Shown here piece by piece: positions 7,535 to 23,875 of a DNA stretch of 42,718 bases. Positions within the stretch are counted from its first letter, which is position 1, and every line of letters starts with the position of its first letter. Source of the DNA: Clostridia bacterium. Its GTDB lineage: Bacteria; Bacillota; Clostridia; Oscillospirales; CAG-272. The stretch covers positions 1 through 42,718 of the forward strand of contig JAFQPI010000057.1 of the NCBI GenBank assembly GCA_017411805.1, in the 5' to 3' direction. The notes beneath the pieces were generated by a model that did no database searches, was not told the origin of the DNA, and saw only the letters and a list, made by a program, of their open reading frames with translations. The translations under genes were made by a program, and so were the position numbers.

Positions 7535-8863
7535 TTATAAAATGATTTTTGCCCCGTCCTCGCTGTATTCTATACGGTCACCCGTGCAGTTGAGGTTATC
7601 GATATACGCGAGATAGTCTGTGGCAGAGGCAAACGGAGCTTCGTATTCGTCAACGATCTTCTTTGCACGTGCCGCGCCGTCCGAAAGCAGAAGCGTAAGC
7701 ATACCGAGCTGAAGCTTTGCGCTTGCAACGCAGGCGGCTTCGGGGTCAACGATATAGAAATCGTTACCGTGCGAGGTACCTGCGGCTCCGCCCGCGTAAG
7801 GATGGATGACGGGCATTATGCAGGAGAGGTCGCCCATATCGGTGCTTCCTGAGCCGAATCCGTGTCCCTCCGTCATCTGATATTCGGGAATGACTTCACC
7901 GGCTGCCTCGAGAGTCAGCGCGATCATGCCCTTATCGTTGTTGAGGGGCGCGTAGCCGGGGATGTCTGTGATGTCGATATTCGTTCCGAGCGAAAGCGCA
8001 CCGCCGATGAGCGCGCGGTTGACCTTTTTGTTTGCGTTAACGATAGCCTCGAAGGTCTTGCCGCGGACGTAGCTTTCGAGCGTTGCGGTCTCGGGGATGG
8101 CGTTGACCATCGCGCCGCCGCTTGTGATTATCGGGTGGACGCGGATGACGTCGGATTCGCGGAAGGTCTCGCGGATGGCGTTGATCGCGCTCAGCCCGCA
8201 ATTCGCGGCGTAAAGTGCGTTGCGACCCGCCCATGGCGATCCGCCCGCGTGCGCCGCCTTGCCCTTGTAAGTGATCTTCTTTGCCATACAGCCGACCGAG
8301 CCGAGCGAGGTGTGGAAGCTGCCCGAGGTATGGATCATAAAGGCGATATCCACGCCGTCAAAGAGTCCGCGCGAGAGGAATTCGCTCTTGCCGCCCATAT
8401 ATTTGATCACGCCCTTGTCGCGCAGATCGGAACGGTACTCGATCTCAAGAAGCTCCTCGGCGGGAACTGCGCAGAGGCGGATCCTTCCGCATAGACCGTC
8501 GATCGCGCCCTCTTCCTTGAGAGCCGCCGCGATGCCTACGAGAGCGGCGCATTGCGCGTTGTGACCGCAGGAATGTACCGCTCCGGTCTTCTTGTCGGAT
8601 TCGGGATGCGCGGGGCAGATTATCGAGTCGAGCTCGGCGAGGACGAGCACCTCGGGTCCGGGTCTGCCCGTATCAATGACGGTGACAAATCCCGTGATGC
8701 CCTCGGCGGGTGTCAGCTCGTAGCCGAGATCCCCGAAGATCTTTTTCATATATGCATCGGTCTTATATTCCTTGTATCCCGTTTCGGGATTTGCCCAGAT
8801 GTATCTTTCGGTTTCAAGAATAAGCTTGCGATGCTTATCTACGGCGGAATTGAGGTTTTTCAT
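7535..8863 (-). CDS. M20-family metallo-amidohydrolase/peptidase
   Basis: A 442-residue cytoplasmic zinc hydrolase of the M20D type (aminoacylase, AbgA/AbgB-like), which removes acyl or aminobenzoyl groups from amino acids or cleaves small amides. Visible motifs are AELDSI, the metal site HSCGHNAQ, AEELLEIEYRSD around the catalytic Glu, the dimerisation-domain KITYKGKAAHAG, and GSGSTDMGDLSCIMPVIHP near the end. CGHNAQ, not CGHDxH, is the form seen in the AbgB-like branch. The start is placed at 8863 because AAGGA lies 9 nt upstream; the longer form at 8881 has a poorer RBS but would overlap the MBL stop as ATGA. The exact substrate is unknown. Confidence 0.8.
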   Translation of the reverse strand: MKNLNSAVDKHRKLILETERYIWANPETGYKEYKTDAYMKKIFGDLGYELTPAEGITGFVTVIDTGRPGPEVLVLAELDSIICPAHPESDKKTGAVHSCGHNAQCAALVGIAAALKEEGAIDGLCGRIRLCAVPAEELLEIEYRSDLRDKGVIKYMGGKSEFLSRGLFDGVDIAFMIHTSGSFHTSLGSVGCMAKKITYKGKAAHAGGSPWAGRNALYAANCGLSAINAIRETFRESDVIRVHPIITSGGAMVNAIPETATLESYVRGKTFEAIVNANKKVNRALIGGALSLGTNIDITDIPGYAPLNNDKGMIALTLEAAGEVIPEYQMTEGHGFGSGSTDMGDLSCIMPVIHPYAGGAAGTSHGNDFYIVDPEAACVASAKLQLGMLTLLLSDGAARAKKIVDEYEAPFASATDYLAYIDNLNCTGDRIEYSEDGAKIIL

Positions 8864-8877
8864 TTTTCTTTGTCCTT

Positions 8878-9648
8878 TCATATTTCCGCGATCATTCCGT
8901 CATGGCAGATAACGATCGGCATATTGTACGTTTTGGCAAATTCGGCGGTCAGACTTTCGGCGGCGGGACGGTCGTCGATGATCTCCCTGCCGTGGTGGTT
9001 GAAATACAGCTTCTCAACGCCTCGCGCCGCCGCGTATTCACAAACGTCAATGACCTTGTGGTGACCCGTTTCCATGATCAGTACGTCAACGCCCGCGCCG
9101 ATGAGCGGATCGAGCTCGTAGGGACTTCTGACGTCGCCCGAGAAGACGATCTTCTTTCCCTCGGCTTCGATCAAGAAGGAGAAGGAGTTGAGTTCTGTCG
9201 TGCTTATATGGCAGTTGTGCTGAGCAGTTACTCGCAAGTTTTTGTCCTCAAAGATCACTCCGTCGCGGATCTGATGCTCGTTGAGAGTGAAATGCATTCT
9301 GCCTTTTAGGGTGGAGATCTTTATGACCGCATCAAGGATATCGCGGTCGGGGAGAAAGATCTCAAGAGAATTTCCGTTTTGAAGTTCCATTCCGTATCTC
9401 TTGATCAGCTTGTTCATGCAGGAGAAGAGATTCGGCATGCCGCCGATGTGGTCGATATGCGGATGCGAGACGAAGAGAGCCTCGGTTTTCATGATATCCA
9501 TACCCGAGGTGTGCGCCGTGTAGGCGCAGGACTCGCCCGCGTCAAACCAATAATATGTACCGCCTATTTCAAAAACGAGCGAGCAATGATGCATACCCGC
9601 GATCGGTTCCGTGCCCGAGCAGGTGCCGAGAAAATGAATTTTAACCAT
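8878..9648 (-). CDS. MBL-fold metallohydrolase, RNase Z-like
   Basis: A 256-residue metallo-beta-lactamase-fold hydrolase. It opens with HFLGTCSGTEP and carries the zinc motif SHPHIDHIGG (HxHxDH), then FSFLIEAEGKKIVFSGDVR with the bridging Asp, and a late His in YFNHHG. This arrangement fits the RNase Z/beta-lactamase-B2 group, which contains phosphodiesterases and lactonases. It is the first gene of a leftward group (M20 amidohydrolase next, with stop and possible start overlapping), so it may act on a related small metabolite. RBS GGAGGC lies before the ATG. It differs from the two PhnP-like MBL proteins elsewhere in the window by lacking their Cys cluster. Confidence 0.8.
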   Translation of the reverse strand: MVKIHFLGTCSGTEPIAGMHHCSLVFEIGGTYYWFDAGESCAYTAHTSGMDIMKTEALFVSHPHIDHIGGMPNLFSCMNKLIKRYGMELQNGNSLEIFLPDRDILDAVIKISTLKGRMHFTLNEHQIRDGVIFEDKNLRVTAQHNCHISTTELNSFSFLIEAEGKKIVFSGDVRSPYELDPLIGAGVDVLIMETGHHKVIDVCEYAAARGVEKLYFNHHGREIIDDRPAAESLTAEFAKTYNMPIVICHDGMIAEI

Positions 9649-9781: not shown

Positions 9782-10543
9782 TCATTTTTCTCCCGCGGAG
9801 AGGAAGGCGCGGAGCTTTTCGCTTCTCGGAGAAGAGAAGACTTCTTCGGGTGTGCCCTCTTCCTCGATAATTCCGTCCGAAATGAATATCACGCGGTCGG
9901 ATACGTTACGGGCAAATTCCATTTCGTGCGTGACGATGATCATCGTGCGCTCCGAGTCCTTGAGCGAGCGGATGACTCGCAACACCTCTCCCGTAAGCTC
10001 GGGATCAAGGGAGGACGTGGGTTCGTCGAAGCAGAGAATGTCGGGCGAGAGCATGAGTGCGCGCGCGATGGCAACACGCTGCTGCTGACCGCCCGAAAGC
10101 TGACAAGGGTACGCGGTCGCCTTTTCGGTAAGCCCGACGGTGGCGAGGAGCTTTTCAGCCCTTGCGCGGATATCGTCAAGGCTCTCGCCATTCTTTTGCC
10201 TTTTTGCGCGGAGCTTGGGAGCGAGCATGAGGTTTTCTATGACGTTGTATTGAGGGAAGAGATTGAACTGCTGAAATACCAGACCAAAGGAAAGCTGCGC
10301 TTCGGGTGACATGACCGGCTTTTCACCTTCGTTTGCAGAGTAAACGGTTTCCCCCGCGACTATGATCTCGCCGCTGTTGGCTTTCTCAAGAAAATTGAGA
10401 CAGCGGAGGAGAGTCGTTTTGCCGCCTCCCGAAGAGCCGATAATGGAGAGGACCTCGCCCTTTTTGAGGCTCAGATCGATGCCCTTCAATACTTCGATAT
10501 CTCCGAAACGCTTGCGGAGGTTTTTAATCTCAAGAATCTTCAT
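9782..10543 (-). CDS. Amino-acid ABC transporter ATP-binding protein
   Basis: A 253-residue ATPase of the polar-amino-acid (GlnQ/HisP) family that powers uptake from the inner face of the membrane. Walker A is GSSGGGKTT (about residues 36-44), the Q-loop is VFQQFNLFP, the signature is LSGGQQQRVAIARAL, Walker B is ILCFDEPTSSLDP, and the switch His is in VTHEMEFA. A slightly long segment (YSANEGEKPVMSPEAQL) sits before the Q-loop, as in many Clostridial members. RBS AAGGAGGT overlaps the end of the permease gene 12 nt upstream. It is the last gene of the binding protein-permease-ATPase operon. Confidence 0.95.
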   Translation of the reverse strand: MKILEIKNLRKRFGDIEVLKGIDLSLKKGEVLSIIGSSGGGKTTLLRCLNFLEKANSGEIIVAGETVYSANEGEKPVMSPEAQLSFGLVFQQFNLFPQYNVIENLMLAPKLRAKRQKNGESLDDIRARAEKLLATVGLTEKATAYPCQLSGGQQQRVAIARALMLSPDILCFDEPTSSLDPELTGEVLRVIRSLKDSERTMIIVTHEMEFARNVSDRVIFISDGIIEEEGTPEEVFSSPRSEKLRAFLSAGEK

Positions 10544-10555
10544 TCGTGTACCTCC

Positions 10556-11206
10556 TTAAGCCTTGAAGTAATCGAGCTTCTTCTCAAGCCATCCGAAGAA
10601 GAAGGTGAGCAGGGCTGTGAATACCAGATAGTAGATGGCGGTATAGAAGAGCGGCCAGAGCAGACCGGCGTTCTTGATGTATCTTTGAGCAAAGTAGATA
10701 AGCTCATAGTAGGTTACGACGCGGGCAAGTGAGGTGTCCTTGACGAGCGTGATGACCTCGTTTGACATTGGCGCAAGAATGCGCTTGACGACCTGAAGCA
10801 GGATGACCTTGAAGAAGGTCTCACTCTTGGTCATACCGAGGACCTGCCCTGCCTCGTACTGACCCTTGGCGATAGATTCGATTCCTCCGCGGTATATCTC
10901 CGAGAAATAGCAGGCGTAATTGATCGAGAAGGTGATGTAGACCGCGGTGGTTGCCTTCAGCAGCATTTGACCGAAAATCAGTCCCGGTCCGTAGTACACG
11001 GCTATAAGCTGAAGCATAAGCGGCGTTCCTCGGATGACCCAGACGAATGCCCTTGTTATAGCCGCGAGGGGCTTGAACTTTGACATTGAGCCAAAGGCAA
11101 TGATAAGACCGAGCGGCAAAGAGAAGGCAAGAGTCACGAAGAAGATCTTCAGAGTTTCGCCAAAGCCGACCAATAGGTCGAGCGTAATATTAATAAACTG
11201 TTCCAT
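10556..11206 (-). CDS. Amino-acid ABC transporter permease
   Basis: A 216-residue HisM/GlnP-type inner-membrane permease with about five membrane segments. The coupling motif region reads EAGQVLGMTKSETFFKVILLQ, the EAA-loop that docks on the ATPase; I quote it as one segment of 21 or fewer conserved positions but only EAG and Gly-9 later are invariant. The ATG at 11206 is preferred; a TTG three codons earlier is possible and neither has a strong RBS. It sits between the binding-protein gene, from which a GC hairpin separates it, and the ATPase gene. Substrate is predicted to be a polar amino acid from the binding protein's family. Confidence 0.93.
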   Translation of the reverse strand: MEQFINITLDLLVGFGETLKIFFVTLAFSLPLGLIIAFGSMSKFKPLAAITRAFVWVIRGTPLMLQLIAVYYGPGLIFGQMLLKATTAVYITFSINYACYFSEIYRGGIESIAKGQYEAGQVLGMTKSETFFKVILLQVVKRILAPMSNEVITLVKDTSLARVVTYYELIYFAQRYIKNAGLLWPLFYTAIYYLVFTALLTFFFGWLEKKLDYFKA

Positions 11207-11219
11207 ATTCTTCAATAAC

Positions 11220-11251: not shown

Positions 11252-12070
11252 TTAGTTTTTGATGAGAGCCTTGGCGAGGGTGAGGTCAACTACGGCAGCG
11301 GCGGAAGCTCCCGAAAGTACTTCGAGAAGCGCGTCTGTCTGCGCGGTAACGCCCTTATACCCCTCTTTGAGAGAATCATCGGCAAGGATGACCTTTTCGC
11401 CCGCGGAGCCCGCCTCGGCAGCGATTGCCACGCCGTAAAGATCCTTCAATGTCTTGTATTTTTCGGCGTCAGCCTTCTTGATAACGGCTACCTGAGTGTT
11501 GTACATATAGGGAGCCGTGCAATCTGCGGCAGTCTCGATAGCATCCGTGATTGTCATACCGTTCCAAATGCAGTCGATGTCCTTAGCCTCGAGAGCAACG
11601 AGCTTATAATCCCATTCGATCTCCTTGAATTCTGCTTCAACGCCAAGCTTTTCGCATACGGCTCTTGCGTAATCGGCATCAAATCCGATCCATTCGCCGT
11701 TTTCGTCCTTGTAGTCCATGGGCTTGTAATCGGTGATTCCAATCGTGAGCTTGCCCTTGGATTTTACGTAATCATAATCTCCGCTGCCCTCGCAAGGATC
11801 GGCTTTGGGAGTATAGTCTTCTTTACCAACGGCGCCGACTTCGTATTTTGTTGAAAGCGATGCGATGGTGCCGTCGTTCATGAGCTCGACGGTAATATCC
11901 TCGACCTTTCTGGTAAGGTCGGAGCCTGCACGGAAAGCAATTCCGAAATATTCGCGCTCGAGACCGAGATCAAGGATCGCAAGATCATCATAGCTTCCAC
12001 CCTTAGAGCAGGAGGCAAAAGAGGTGCAGAGAAGCGCGAGTGTAAGGAGCATAACAATTAATTTTTTCAT
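11252..12070 (-). CDS. Amino-acid ABC binding lipoprotein, circularly permuted
   Basis: A 272-residue lipoprotein of the SBP_bac_3 (family 3) solute-binding fold, which captures an amino acid outside the membrane. The ATG at 12070 starts the signal peptide MKKLIVMLLTLALL, with lipid Cys21 in FASC. The domain order is rotated. Residues 26-78 (SYDDLAILDLG, EYFGIAFRAGSDL, DGTIASLSTKYE) are the part that normally ends the protein. Residues about 100-272 (GKLTIGITDYKPMDY, GEWIGFDADYARAVCEKLG, DCIWNGMTIT, EAGSAGEK, AAVVDLTLAKALIKN) are the part that normally comes first. Every expected block is present once. It is the first gene of the transporter operon. Confidence 0.85.
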   Translation of the reverse strand: MKKLIVMLLTLALLCTSFASCSKGGSYDDLAILDLGLEREYFGIAFRAGSDLTRKVEDITVELMNDGTIASLSTKYEVGAVGKEDYTPKADPCEGSGDYDYVKSKGKLTIGITDYKPMDYKDENGEWIGFDADYARAVCEKLGVEAEFKEIEWDYKLVALEAKDIDCIWNGMTITDAIETAADCTAPYMYNTQVAVIKKADAEKYKTLKDLYGVAIAAEAGSAGEKVILADDSLKEGYKGVTAQTDALLEVLSGASAAAVVDLTLAKALIKN

Positions 12071-20043: not shown

Positions 20044-21804
20044 ATGTACAACGAATGGTCACTTGACGTATTTTATAAGGGCGCGGATGATCCCGCGCTT
20101 GAGCTTGATATTAAAAAGATCGAGGAATCGGTTGCCGAATACAAAAAGGCGATCGCGGCACTTGACGCATCCGCACCGACGGCATCTTTGCGCCGTGTTA
20201 TCGACGTAAAAGAGCAGATGGGCCTGCTGACCCGCCGCCTTATGGGATTCTTCAGCCTCCGTCGTTCGGCAAACGCATCGGACACCGCAGGCGCGGTCTA
20301 CATGACCAAGATCCAGGGTATGATGGCGTCGCTTGCCAAGGAGAACGTCGCTTTCAATAAGTTTGTCGGCGCGATCGAGGATATCGATGCCGTCATCGCG
20401 GGCGACGAGGTCCTTTGCGAATACGGATTCTATTTTGATGAGGTAAAGAAGTCTGTTTCGCATATGCTTTCCGATGAAGCCGAGGAGGTCTTTGCTAAGC
20501 TCAACATCAGCGGCGGCAGAGCCTGGGGCGATCTTTTCTCCTATCTGACCGCAAACGTTGAGGTTGATTACAAGGGCGAAAAGACGACTCTTTCCGCCAT
20601 TCGCGGACTTGCCGAGAGCGATGATGCCGCTGTCCGCCGCGAGGCTTACGAGGCTGAGCTTGCCTGCTACAAAAAGATCCGCGATTCGATCGCGTTTGCG
20701 CTCAACAGCATCAAGTGTCAGGTAAATACCGAGGCTGAGCTCCGCGGCTACGCAGATCCGCTGGCAATGACCCTCGAGGATTCGCGCATGCAGAAGGCGA
20801 CCCTCGACGCAATGCTCGAGGCTATGCGCGAATATATGCCCAAATTCCGCGAGTATATGCGCCATAAGGCAAAGCTTCTCGGATACGAAAACGGTTTGCC
20901 CTGGTTCGAGATGTACGCGCAGATCGGCGACGCAAGCACGCAGACTTTTACCGTCGAGGAGGCGCACAAATATCTCGTCGAGCATTTCGAAAGCTTTGCT
21001 CCCGATCTCGCTGAAATGGTAGACCGCGCGTTCCGTGAAGAATGGATCGACTTTTATCCCCGCGCGGGCAAGGTCGGCGGTGCATTCTGCTCGAATCTGC
21101 CCTTCATCGGTCAGAGCCGTATTCTTACCAATTTCTCGGGCAGCTTCGGCTCTGTAGTCACACTCGCGCACGAGCTTGGTCACGCATACCACGGTCAGCA
21201 GATCGAGTCGCACCGTCCGCTCAACACGGGATACACGATGCCCGTTGCCGAGACTGCATCGAACTTCAACGAGCTTATCATCGTAAACGACGCGATATCG
21301 AAGGCTGAGGGCGCGGAGAAGATCGCTCTTATCGAAAGCCAGATCCAGGATTGCAACCAGATCATCGTTGATATCTACTCGCGCTTCCTCTTCGAGGACG
21401 AGGTCATCCGCCGCAGAAAGAGCAAGTTTATGTTCGCGGACGAGCTTGAACAGATCATGCTTAATGCACAGAAGGAAGCCTACGGCGACGGTCTCGACCC
21501 GAATTATCTTCATCCCTATATGTGGTGCTGCAAGAGCCACTACTACCGCGCGGGTCTCAGCTACTATAATTTCCCCTATGCCTTCGGCGGACTCTTCTCG
21601 CGCGGCCTTTACGCGAAGTATCTCGAGGAGGGCGAGGCATTCCTGCCCAAATACCGCGCGCTTCTGAAGGCAACGACCGTCGAGAGCGTCGAGGACGTCG
21701 CTCATATCGCGGGCATCGACCTGACCAAGCCCGAATTCTGGCGCACGAGCCTGCAGGTTATTGCCGATAGAATTGATGAGTTTATTGCGGAGACGAGCAA
21801 ATAA
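20044..21804 (+). CDS. pepF: M3-family oligoendopeptidase
   Basis: A 586-residue cytoplasmic zinc peptidase of the PepF (M3B) type, which degrades short peptides. The zinc motif HELGH is at residues 376-380 (in HELGHAYHGQ), and the third ligand Glu lies in PVAETASNFNE about 25 residues later. The N-terminal helical domain and the length fit the family. RBS AAGGAGTG is 8 nt before the ATG. It is a single-gene unit with a strong promoter. Codon use is regular, so the antisense frame of similar length is only a shadow. It may act with the amino-acid transporter in peptide scavenging. Confidence 0.93.
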   Translation: MYNEWSLDVFYKGADDPALELDIKKIEESVAEYKKAIAALDASAPTASLRRVIDVKEQMGLLTRRLMGFFSLRRSANASDTAGAVYMTKIQGMMASLAKENVAFNKFVGAIEDIDAVIAGDEVLCEYGFYFDEVKKSVSHMLSDEAEEVFAKLNISGGRAWGDLFSYLTANVEVDYKGEKTTLSAIRGLAESDDAAVRREAYEAELACYKKIRDSIAFALNSIKCQVNTEAELRGYADPLAMTLEDSRMQKATLDAMLEAMREYMPKFREYMRHKAKLLGYENGLPWFEMYAQIGDASTQTFTVEEAHKYLVEHFESFAPDLAEMVDRAFREEWIDFYPRAGKVGGAFCSNLPFIGQSRILTNFSGSFGSVVTLAHELGHAYHGQQIESHRPLNTGYTMPVAETASNFNELIIVNDAISKAEGAEKIALIESQIQDCNQIIVDIYSRFLFEDEVIRRRKSKFMFADELEQIMLNAQKEAYGDGLDPNYLHPYMWCCKSHYYRAGLSYYNFPYAFGGLFSRGLYAKYLEEGEAFLPKYRALLKATTVESVEDVAHIAGIDLTKPEFWRTSLQVIADRIDEFIAETSK

Positions 21805-21830
21805 CACCAGCGGAAAGTTTTTTGAAGCTT

Positions 21831-23095: not shown

Positions 23096-23776
23096 TTATA
23101 ATTTCTTTTTCAATATATGTTTGAGGTAATTTTTTTTGAAATCTCTGCCGTTTATAAAAAACTCAAGTTCGGAATTTGACGGTGATTTGGTTTCGAACTT
23201 TTTTGCAACAAGCTCAATAGTGCAGATCAAGTCTGCTGCTTGGAATAAGATATAATCTTTAGGCTGAACTTTTCGAAACTCAATATTTGACAACAGGGCA
23301 TTGAATACAGAAGTCAATACTTTGGTAAGTTCAATTTGACCGTTATCGTAGTAAACAACAATTTCGTCGAACTGATTCCAATATTCCATATTCCTGCGCA
23401 AGCTTTCTGAGATGGATTTCGATATTTTGGACGTAAGCTGAATTACATCGGAACATTCTGATTTTTTTATTAGTATAAAGTCGTAATGAATATCGAGTAT
23501 ACGTACGAAATTAAATAGAGAATTGAATAGCTTTTTTCTGCGTTCCATCAGATCGTTCATATAGATCGATTCTCTGCGGATTAAGGGACCTGCATGTATT
23601 GCATGGGGATTATAACCTATGTTGTTTATGAGTTGATAGAAGGAAGAAATCTTGCTCGATATGTCAATATTTTGATCGTGCAGAACCATAGTTACCAAAT
23701 AATATGGCGAATGAGGAGAATACTCTCCGAAATCTCCAGATTCATCAATGAAAATGCTTAATTTTTTATTTGACAT
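23096..23776 (-). CDS. DUF3800-domain protein
   Basis: A 226-residue protein of the DUF3800 family, an RNase H-like fold. The N-terminal signature IFIDESGDFG is clear, with a His-containing HAIHAG, a strand ending EIVVYYDNG, and the second signature FQAADLICTIE. These acidic residues are where a metal-dependent nuclease would have its site. The family is scattered on phages, plasmids and defence-rich regions, and its biological role is not settled. The gene is unusually A+T-rich for the region, hinting at transfer. It has its own consensus promoter, and a structured leader with a terminator lies between promoter and RBS (GGAG, 23785-23788). The ATG follows 8 nt later. Confidence 0.85.
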   Translation of the reverse strand: MSNKKLSIFIDESGDFGEYSPHSPYYLVTMVLHDQNIDISSKISSFYQLINNIGYNPHAIHAGPLIRRESIYMNDLMERRKKLFNSLFNFVRILDIHYDFILIKKSECSDVIQLTSKISKSISESLRRNMEYWNQFDEIVVYYDNGQIELTKVLTSVFNALLSNIEFRKVQPKDYILFQAADLICTIELVAKKFETKSPSNSELEFFINGRDFKKNYLKHILKKKL

Positions 23777-23789
23777 CCAGTACGCTCCG

Positions 23790-23875
23790 ATATAAAAAAG
23801 TGGCGGGGAAATTCCCCGCCGTTCGGTGGACCAGGGTCTTTCGACCAGCCCATCCGGCTCGCGCCGGATTTACAA
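23790..23875 (-). ncRNA. Structured leader RNA of DUF3800 gene
   Basis: Transcription from the promoter at 23880-23908 should begin near 23873. Read leftward, the RNA folds into AUCCGGC-GCGA-GCCGGAU (GNRA tetraloop), then GGUC-GAAA-GACC (GNRA tetraloop), then a strong terminator, GGCGGGG-AAUUU-CCCCGCC followed by ACUUUUUU (23794-23820). The coding start is only beyond this terminator. Several conserved RNA motifs are known from comparative genomics to lie beside DUF3800 genes; this is consistent with that, but I cannot assign a class. It could be a cis regulator or a small RNA. Confidence 0.65.
23794..23820 (-). terminator. Intrinsic terminator in the DUF3800 leader
   Basis: GGCGGGG (23802-23808) pairs with CCCCGCC (23814-23820) around a 5-nt loop; leftward RNA then reads ACUUUUUUAU. 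It stands before the coding start, not after it. Confidence 0.8.

Follow-up and report, generated by a model that had tools for sequence, protein, structure and literature searches.

A gene in the window, by which we mean the whole 42,718-nucleotide stretch analysed here (Clostridia bacterium, assembly GCA_017411805.1, contig JAFQPI010000057.1), encodes a family-3 amino-acid-binding lipoprotein in which the segment that ordinarily ends the protein precedes the segment that ordinarily starts it. We consider it very likely that this is a true natural circular permutant, most likely with ordinary type-II function and probably derived from a duplication, and that the switch was repeated in relatives. 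Its order is conserved, both of its pieces are under purifying selection, it lies in a transporter operon, and the order has switched many times in relatives; a two-lobed fold, the transport of a solute and an origin by duplication would complete the explanation. The features are collected in Table 1.

Table 1. Positions of the permuted gene, its pieces and the neighbouring transporter genes in the window
Feature	Position	Strand	Remarks
Permuted amino-acid-binding lipoprotein gene, class P1, 272 aa	11252..12070	-	ATG at 12070, stop ends at 11252
Signal peptide and lipid-attachment Cys21	12008..12070	-	Lipobox before Cys21; Cys21 invariant in the 39-row P1 alignment
Residues 23-79, ordinarily the end segment: last lobe-2 strand, then C-terminal part of lobe 1	11834..12004	-	
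Residues 80-97, linker between the old C- and N-termini, about 18 residues	11780..11833	-	Between the two profile matches
Residues 98-271, ordinarily the start segment: N-terminal part of lobe 1, hinge strand, most of lobe 2	11258..11779	-	
Cognate ABC permease (BPD_transp_1)	10556..11215	-	PF00528, 70.2 bits
Cognate ABC ATPase, polar amino-acid type	9782..10543	-	PF00005, 114.3 bits

The order of the segments was read with a profile of 247 positions, built only from 121 normal-order relatives. Residues 98-271 of the window protein matched profile positions 11-185 (231 bits) and residues 23-79 matched positions 186-241 (47.9 bits), whereas 1000 shuffled versions of residues 22-96 scored at most 5.6 bits. 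When the protein was rotated into the ordinary order, a single continuous match to positions 11-241 was obtained (285 bits). All segments of a mature family-3 protein are thus present, with the end piece before the start piece. The pieces adjoin at profile 185/186, so that no segment is missing or repeated, the old termini are joined and the new termini lie elsewhere. Direct comparison with the normal-order protein L097 placed residues 71-270 on its residues 23-232 (52% identity) and residues 23-76 on its residues 234-288 (51% identity), indicating that the two pieces meet at the cut. The protein holds one copy of each segment in 272 residues and not two complete binding domains as in GlnPQ-like tandems. 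The Pfam model SBP_bac_3 (PF00497) matched residues 109-265 with 99.5 bits against a cut-off of 26.4, covering positions 2-122 of 132; because the C-terminal part was not reached, this match is no test of order. The short Pfam model was matched almost end to end, and full-length NCBIfam models were matched in part and below their cut-offs, which would explain why the rearrangement goes unseen in annotation. The initial annotation, made from the letters alone, had described a normal signal peptide with a lipid Cys21, an end segment placed before the start segment, new termini at their ordinary junction and a linker of about 20 residues. Each of these points was borne out, the linker at about 18 residues, and none of the profile and database searches aligned the entire protein in normal order among the matches listed (best 60 of 198 and best 60 of 87 in two of them). 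At the level of sequence, the circular permutation is confirmed.

Homologues with the same order, whose search had been proposed as a check, were found. Among 18 matching loci of a bacterial genome collection, 12 were permuted (L033-L044, 45-85% identity) and the other six were not. Seventeen of the 18 are titled as MAGs; by title, the permuted 12 comprise nine RGIG and three SIG loci, and the RGIG ones come from the gut of cattle, goat, yak, deer, buffalo and sheep. L033-L035 were judged to be the same contigs as G001, G010 and G005 of a search with the window protein in 59 relatives. In 12 other genomes of the window's genus, three permuted and five normal-order proteins were found, one more (G009) looked normal by coordinates only, and three genomes gave no match at E 1e-20. 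All six rows of the window clade in a 95-row tree were P1 (support 99/91). The sequences point to a shared ancestry of permuted and ordinary forms and to an order that is fixed in the window lineage.

The genomic context of the permuted genes was compared with that of normal ones. The permease and ATPase beside the window gene, which had been described as looking intact, gave the Pfam matches listed in Table 1; for the ATPase the best NCBIfam matches were TcyN, GlnQ and HisP, all below their cut-offs. Within 2500 bases downstream, and among loci with at least 450 bases of downstream sequence, a permease homologue was present on the same strand in 68/77 permuted loci (P1 45/54, P2 10/10, P3 13/13; distances up to 251 bases) and in 105/117 normal loci, and nine of the 54 P1 loci had no permease match in range. 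An ATPase homologue was found over the same distance in 65 of 75 permuted loci (P1 42/52, P2 10/10, P3 13/13) and 105 of 114 normal loci with at least 1250 bases downstream; the contig-cut locus L185 was excluded from both counts. Both pieces of the window gene are under purifying selection (dN 0.09-0.14 and dS 0.65-1.38 against L004, L005 and L006). The signal peptide is looser (dN 0.18-0.26, dS 0.58-1.03). For the linker, dN was 0.04 with saturated dS over 20 codons against L004, and 0.48 against L041, a more distant relative. Nearly all rows retain the lobe-2 aspartate (119/120 normal; 77/78 permuted, exception L185). The lobe-1 arginine, which we take to be the usual carboxylate-binding residue, is kept in 31/55 P1, 9/10 P2, 8/13 P3 and 49/120 normal rows and is Ile in the window protein. 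Since it is lost in normal and permuted rows alike (71/120 normal rows lack it), its loss does not track permutation. The aspartate and arginine presumably bind an amino acid by its amino and carboxyl groups, and with Ile in place of the arginine the window ligand may be other than a standard amino acid. Most likely, the two lobes close on a polar, amino-acid-like solute as in an ordinary type-II binding protein, and the closed protein would deliver it to the neighbouring permease and ATPase; transport by the window protein is suggested on these grounds.

Two alternative explanations of the window gene itself were weighed. An assembly or binning error would make the order an artefact of a collapsed or mis-joined metagenome repeat. 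The window's genome consists of 73 contigs at 84.7% completeness and repeats do get misjoined in short-read assemblies, but the same order occurs in 12 of the 18 public loci, spread over different animal hosts and, judging by the titles, two MAG series, no second close copy that could be misjoined was found in the searched part of the window's genome, and the P3 member L116 comes from a 2-contig genome listed as 100% complete. Because the order is conserved in many separate assemblies, the window order is not an assembly error, and we give this explanation practically no weight. A hidden second copy was also considered and rejected: in the searched genome, 84.7% complete, there were only two other matches, both weak (E ~1e-5). 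A degraded relic that has lost transport is very improbable. Such a relic could account for the facts that no NCBIfam model reaches its cut-off, with full-length models matching in part only, and that the carboxylate-binding arginine is missing. However, the arginine is missing in 71/120 normal-order rows as well, purifying selection acts on both pieces and, against the nearest relatives, on the linker (more weakly on the signal peptide), residues in both pieces are invariant across 39 P1 proteins, and the permease and ATPase are intact. The earlier judgement that the protein is probably functional is therefore likely to be right, as far as the intact transporter genes, the purifying selection and the order conserved in relatives can tell.

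The survey was then extended beyond the 59 relatives. A profile (A1) of 13 close relatives was searched at four taxonomic ranks, namely in the family (295 genomes), the order (394), the class (391) and the phylum (398). In addition, 117 genomes of the order were searched with a single divergent permuted protein. The genome sets overlap with one another. Among 200 distinct lipoproteins, 78 were permuted (55 P1, 10 P2 and 13 P3) and 122 were normal, which is not a frequency because loci were picked by match coordinates and permuted-looking ones were fetched deliberately. Each mature protein was scored against the normal-order profile once and again when written twice. The gains from doubling were all either at most -0.8 bits or at least 35 bits, with none between. 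Five of the 200 labels, four permuted and one normal, were corrected by coordinates and by eye: the permuted P1 proteins L152, L182, L183 and L188 were missed by the test owing to a long tether, and the normal L249 showed a false gain from an insertion. An earlier version of the test had missed L044, L182, L183 and L188, of which the later version recovered L044; L185, a P1 gene cut by a contig end, had first been labelled P2. Because the 121 normal proteins without gain had themselves built the profile, a held-out control with two folds was added. None of the 121 held-out normal proteins gained more than 10 bits (largest -1.3), and 74/78 permuted proteins did in each fold; L182, L183 and L188 fell short of this gain both times, as did L083 in one fold and L152 in the other. 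No class was assigned to the 14 of 220 proteins in which a lipobox was not recognised. One of them, L175:102-1109 (-) (G668:C12), is permuted by eye, of P1 type and with an apparent N-terminal transmembrane anchor, and its genome also carries a lipoprotein P1 form, L151. No permutant cut within lobe 1 was seen among the 200 lipoproteins; such permutants could be overlooked by a survey that mainly used a P1 profile as query and selected loci by match coordinates.

The permuted proteins fell into three breakpoint classes. P1, the class of the window protein, opens before the last lobe-2 strand; its new start (median, range 180-195) and its new end both lie at profile 186. In P2 the chain opens within lobe 2 (start 149.5, range 145-151; end 144, range 140-145) and in P3 at the hinge (start 123, range 111-127; end 112, range 109-120). 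About 5 positions were lost at the cut in P2 members and about 10 in P3 members. To locate the P1 and P3 cuts, the order of secondary-structure elements in two models was used, and for the P2 cut the alignment only; which element belongs to which lobe is assumed from what is generally known of the fold. Read in this way, every cut would lie in lobe 2 or at its border, with the lipid tether running into lobe 2 and lobe 1 continuous. L182, L183, L188 and L152, P1 proteins of two other families of the class, carry a long polar, often acidic tether from the lipid Cys to the start of lobe 2.

The distribution of the orders was then followed on trees, for which sequences had been rotated into a common order beforehand. 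On a careful tree of 95 rows, the order had to change between normal and permuted 15 times, and well-supported branches forced no fewer than 12 of these changes; by class there were 8 changes for P1 (at least 6), 7 for P3 (at least 6) and 2 for P2 (at least 1). These parsimony counts pool gains and losses of the permuted order. A single clade was ruled out by the AU test for both P1 (p 5e-59) and P3 (p 5e-40). A quick tree of 136 rows also gave 15 changes, of which 8 or more were forced; in this tree one branch set P2 apart. A single origin would fit P2 alone, which needs 1 change in the 136-row tree and 2 in the 95-row tree. Both proteins of the L249 locus, L185 and near-identical rows were left out of the trees, and long or oddly composed rows were further omitted from the segment trees (L002, L050, L140, L143) and from the careful tree (L212); the omission of L140 and L143 cannot have raised the count of changes because both are P1. 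For several permuted proteins, normal relatives share 60-72% identity (L154/L172 72%, L176/L016 72%, L177/L161 71%, L024/L224 62%). These results showed, from aligned sequences, many switches between ordinary and permuted order in relatives, by the same kind of rearrangement or its reversal at three cut places. The order in the window is one of these many switches at three recurring breakpoints, which goes beyond what had been noted from the window gene.

It could be argued that there was a single origin of the order, or a single one for each breakpoint class, and that gene conversion with normal paralogues then scattered the permuted genes. The breakpoints lie at near-identical positions (P1 starts at profile 180-195), which independent events need not give, and the trees of short segments are weakly resolved. 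Nevertheless, conversion would have to swap both pieces of a rearranged gene every time, a single origin per class fits P2 only, and the N- and C-terminal pieces need about as many changes as the whole: quick piece trees of 132 rows gave 14 changes for the N-terminal and 15 for the C-terminal piece against 15 for the whole protein (136 rows). The segment trees, with few columns (61 to 180), gave 14-18 changes, so that conversion of a single piece is not supported and fails to account for the scatter, weak as these trees are. We regard scattering by conversion as rather improbable and repeated switching as the better reading.

The fold of the window protein was modelled with AlphaFold2 from 39 aligned P1 proteins (mean pLDDT 92.0, pTM 0.79), and a P3 member was modelled with a pLDDT of 88. 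Foldseek matched type-II proteins, mostly over 166-192 columns at 17-35% identity with a query TM-score of 0.38-0.50 among the best 50 of 1145 matches; being a sequential aligner, Foldseek is unable to score a permuted fold as a whole. Among the matches listed (best 60 of 198, of 247 and of 131), no solved structure had the permuted order, which leaves the fold a predicted one, and the only best stretch spanning both pieces was in the tandem structure 6h30. The models suggest a two-lobed protein whose chain would start in lobe 2, so that the lipid tether would sit on lobe 2 rather than on lobe 1, the latter becoming one continuous stretch.

As a possible origin of the order, the initial annotation had suggested tandem duplication and trimming. 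In this route, a normal binding-protein gene was probably duplicated in frame and in tandem, the front part of the first copy was probably lost behind the signal peptide, and a stop probably arose inside lobe 2 of the second copy. Another genome of the phylum carries a fused tandem lipoprotein, L250:1091-2674 (-) (G1380:C6:28000-31800), a frame of 528 residues in which one complete binding domain follows another head to tail, with 182 of 229 aligned residues identical between them (79%); this is consistent with the kind of intermediate that the duplication route expects. The P3 profile (positions 33-267) matched chain residues 108-325, and the P2 profile (27-277) residues 128-358, of GlnPQ SBD1-SBD2 (6h30), both crossing the domain boundary. 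The suggestion of duplication and trimming thus agrees with the extant tandem and with these matches, though no event was caught in the act. The flanks of the 78 permuted genes were searched for remnants of a lost copy, over at most 500 bases upstream and 300 bases downstream, and none was found in the 465 frames there.

The window protein was compared with known systems. With family-3 proteins (PF00497 SBP_bac_3; GlnH, HisJ, ArtJ, TmArgBP, AncQR) it shares the sequence of both pieces, the predicted two-lobed fold, the lipobox, the operon with permease and ATPase and the lobe-2 aspartate. It differs in the rotated chain order, in an N-terminus and lipid tether in lobe 2 and in a continuous lobe 1. 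To our knowledge, most natural circular permutations are old, rare and visible in structures only. Ribose-binding protein belongs to a different class of binding protein. Its permuted constructs (Michel et al. 2023, as cited in PMC10601554) likewise present parts of a binding-protein fold in permuted form, but they were engineered in the laboratory. Natural circular permutation among ABC-importer binding proteins is documented for a family of glycine-betaine-binding (OpuAC, ProX structures) and molybdate-binding proteins reported with CPSARST, which PMC2395249 describes as found by structure at an identity below 24%. In contrast, the permutation described here is plain in sequence, with nearest normal relatives up to 72% identical, and concerns a single amino-acid family, in which the order switched many times and at three breakpoints. 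The tandem substrate-binding domains SBD1-SBD2 of GlnPQ (PDB 6h30; PMC8025302) share with our proteins the head-to-tail fusion of binding domains, whose boundary the P2 and P3 profiles cross, but they are two complete normal-order domains fused to a permease and not a permutant. No report of natural permutation in family-3 proteins was found among the matches listed in the open-access literature. Natural permutation of binding proteins is known, and its recurrent, sequence-visible form with three cut sites appears to be new.

A single family thus combines many order switches that can be placed on a tree with cut sites that recur at three places and with a present-day fused tandem, which makes it testable where two-lobed proteins tolerate new ends, what this does to transport and how often permutation arises. 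The natural cut sites are also candidates for building biosensors. As a tentative idea, to which we give a minor share of probability, the permutation might be a recurrent, selected switch that shifts the tether from lobe 1 onto lobe 2 and turns lobe 1 into one continuous folding unit, altering folding on export or docking to the permease. If so, the three lobe-2 cut sites would reflect a constraint on folding or docking, and the family would be a natural permutation experiment with replicate events at sequence-level resolution.

Other features of the window were also recorded. Downstream of the transporter, at 7535-9648 (-), lie a gene with an RNase Z-like metallo-beta-lactamase fold, whose NCBIfam matches fell below the cut-offs, and a gene for an M20 amidohydrolase that passed the cut-off of TIGR01891; neither was present within 2500 bases downstream in the listed permuted loci, many of which have too little sequence. 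Positions 20044-21807 hold two long overlapping open reading frames on opposite strands (586 and 582 aa), the minus-strand frame having no Pfam match at E 1e-5. No regulatory RNA was found near the permuted gene, the sole gathering-level Rfam match in the window being a DUF3800-XI RNA at 23805-23852 (-) with 72.9 bits, just upstream of a DUF3800 gene at 23096-23776 (-) (PF12686).
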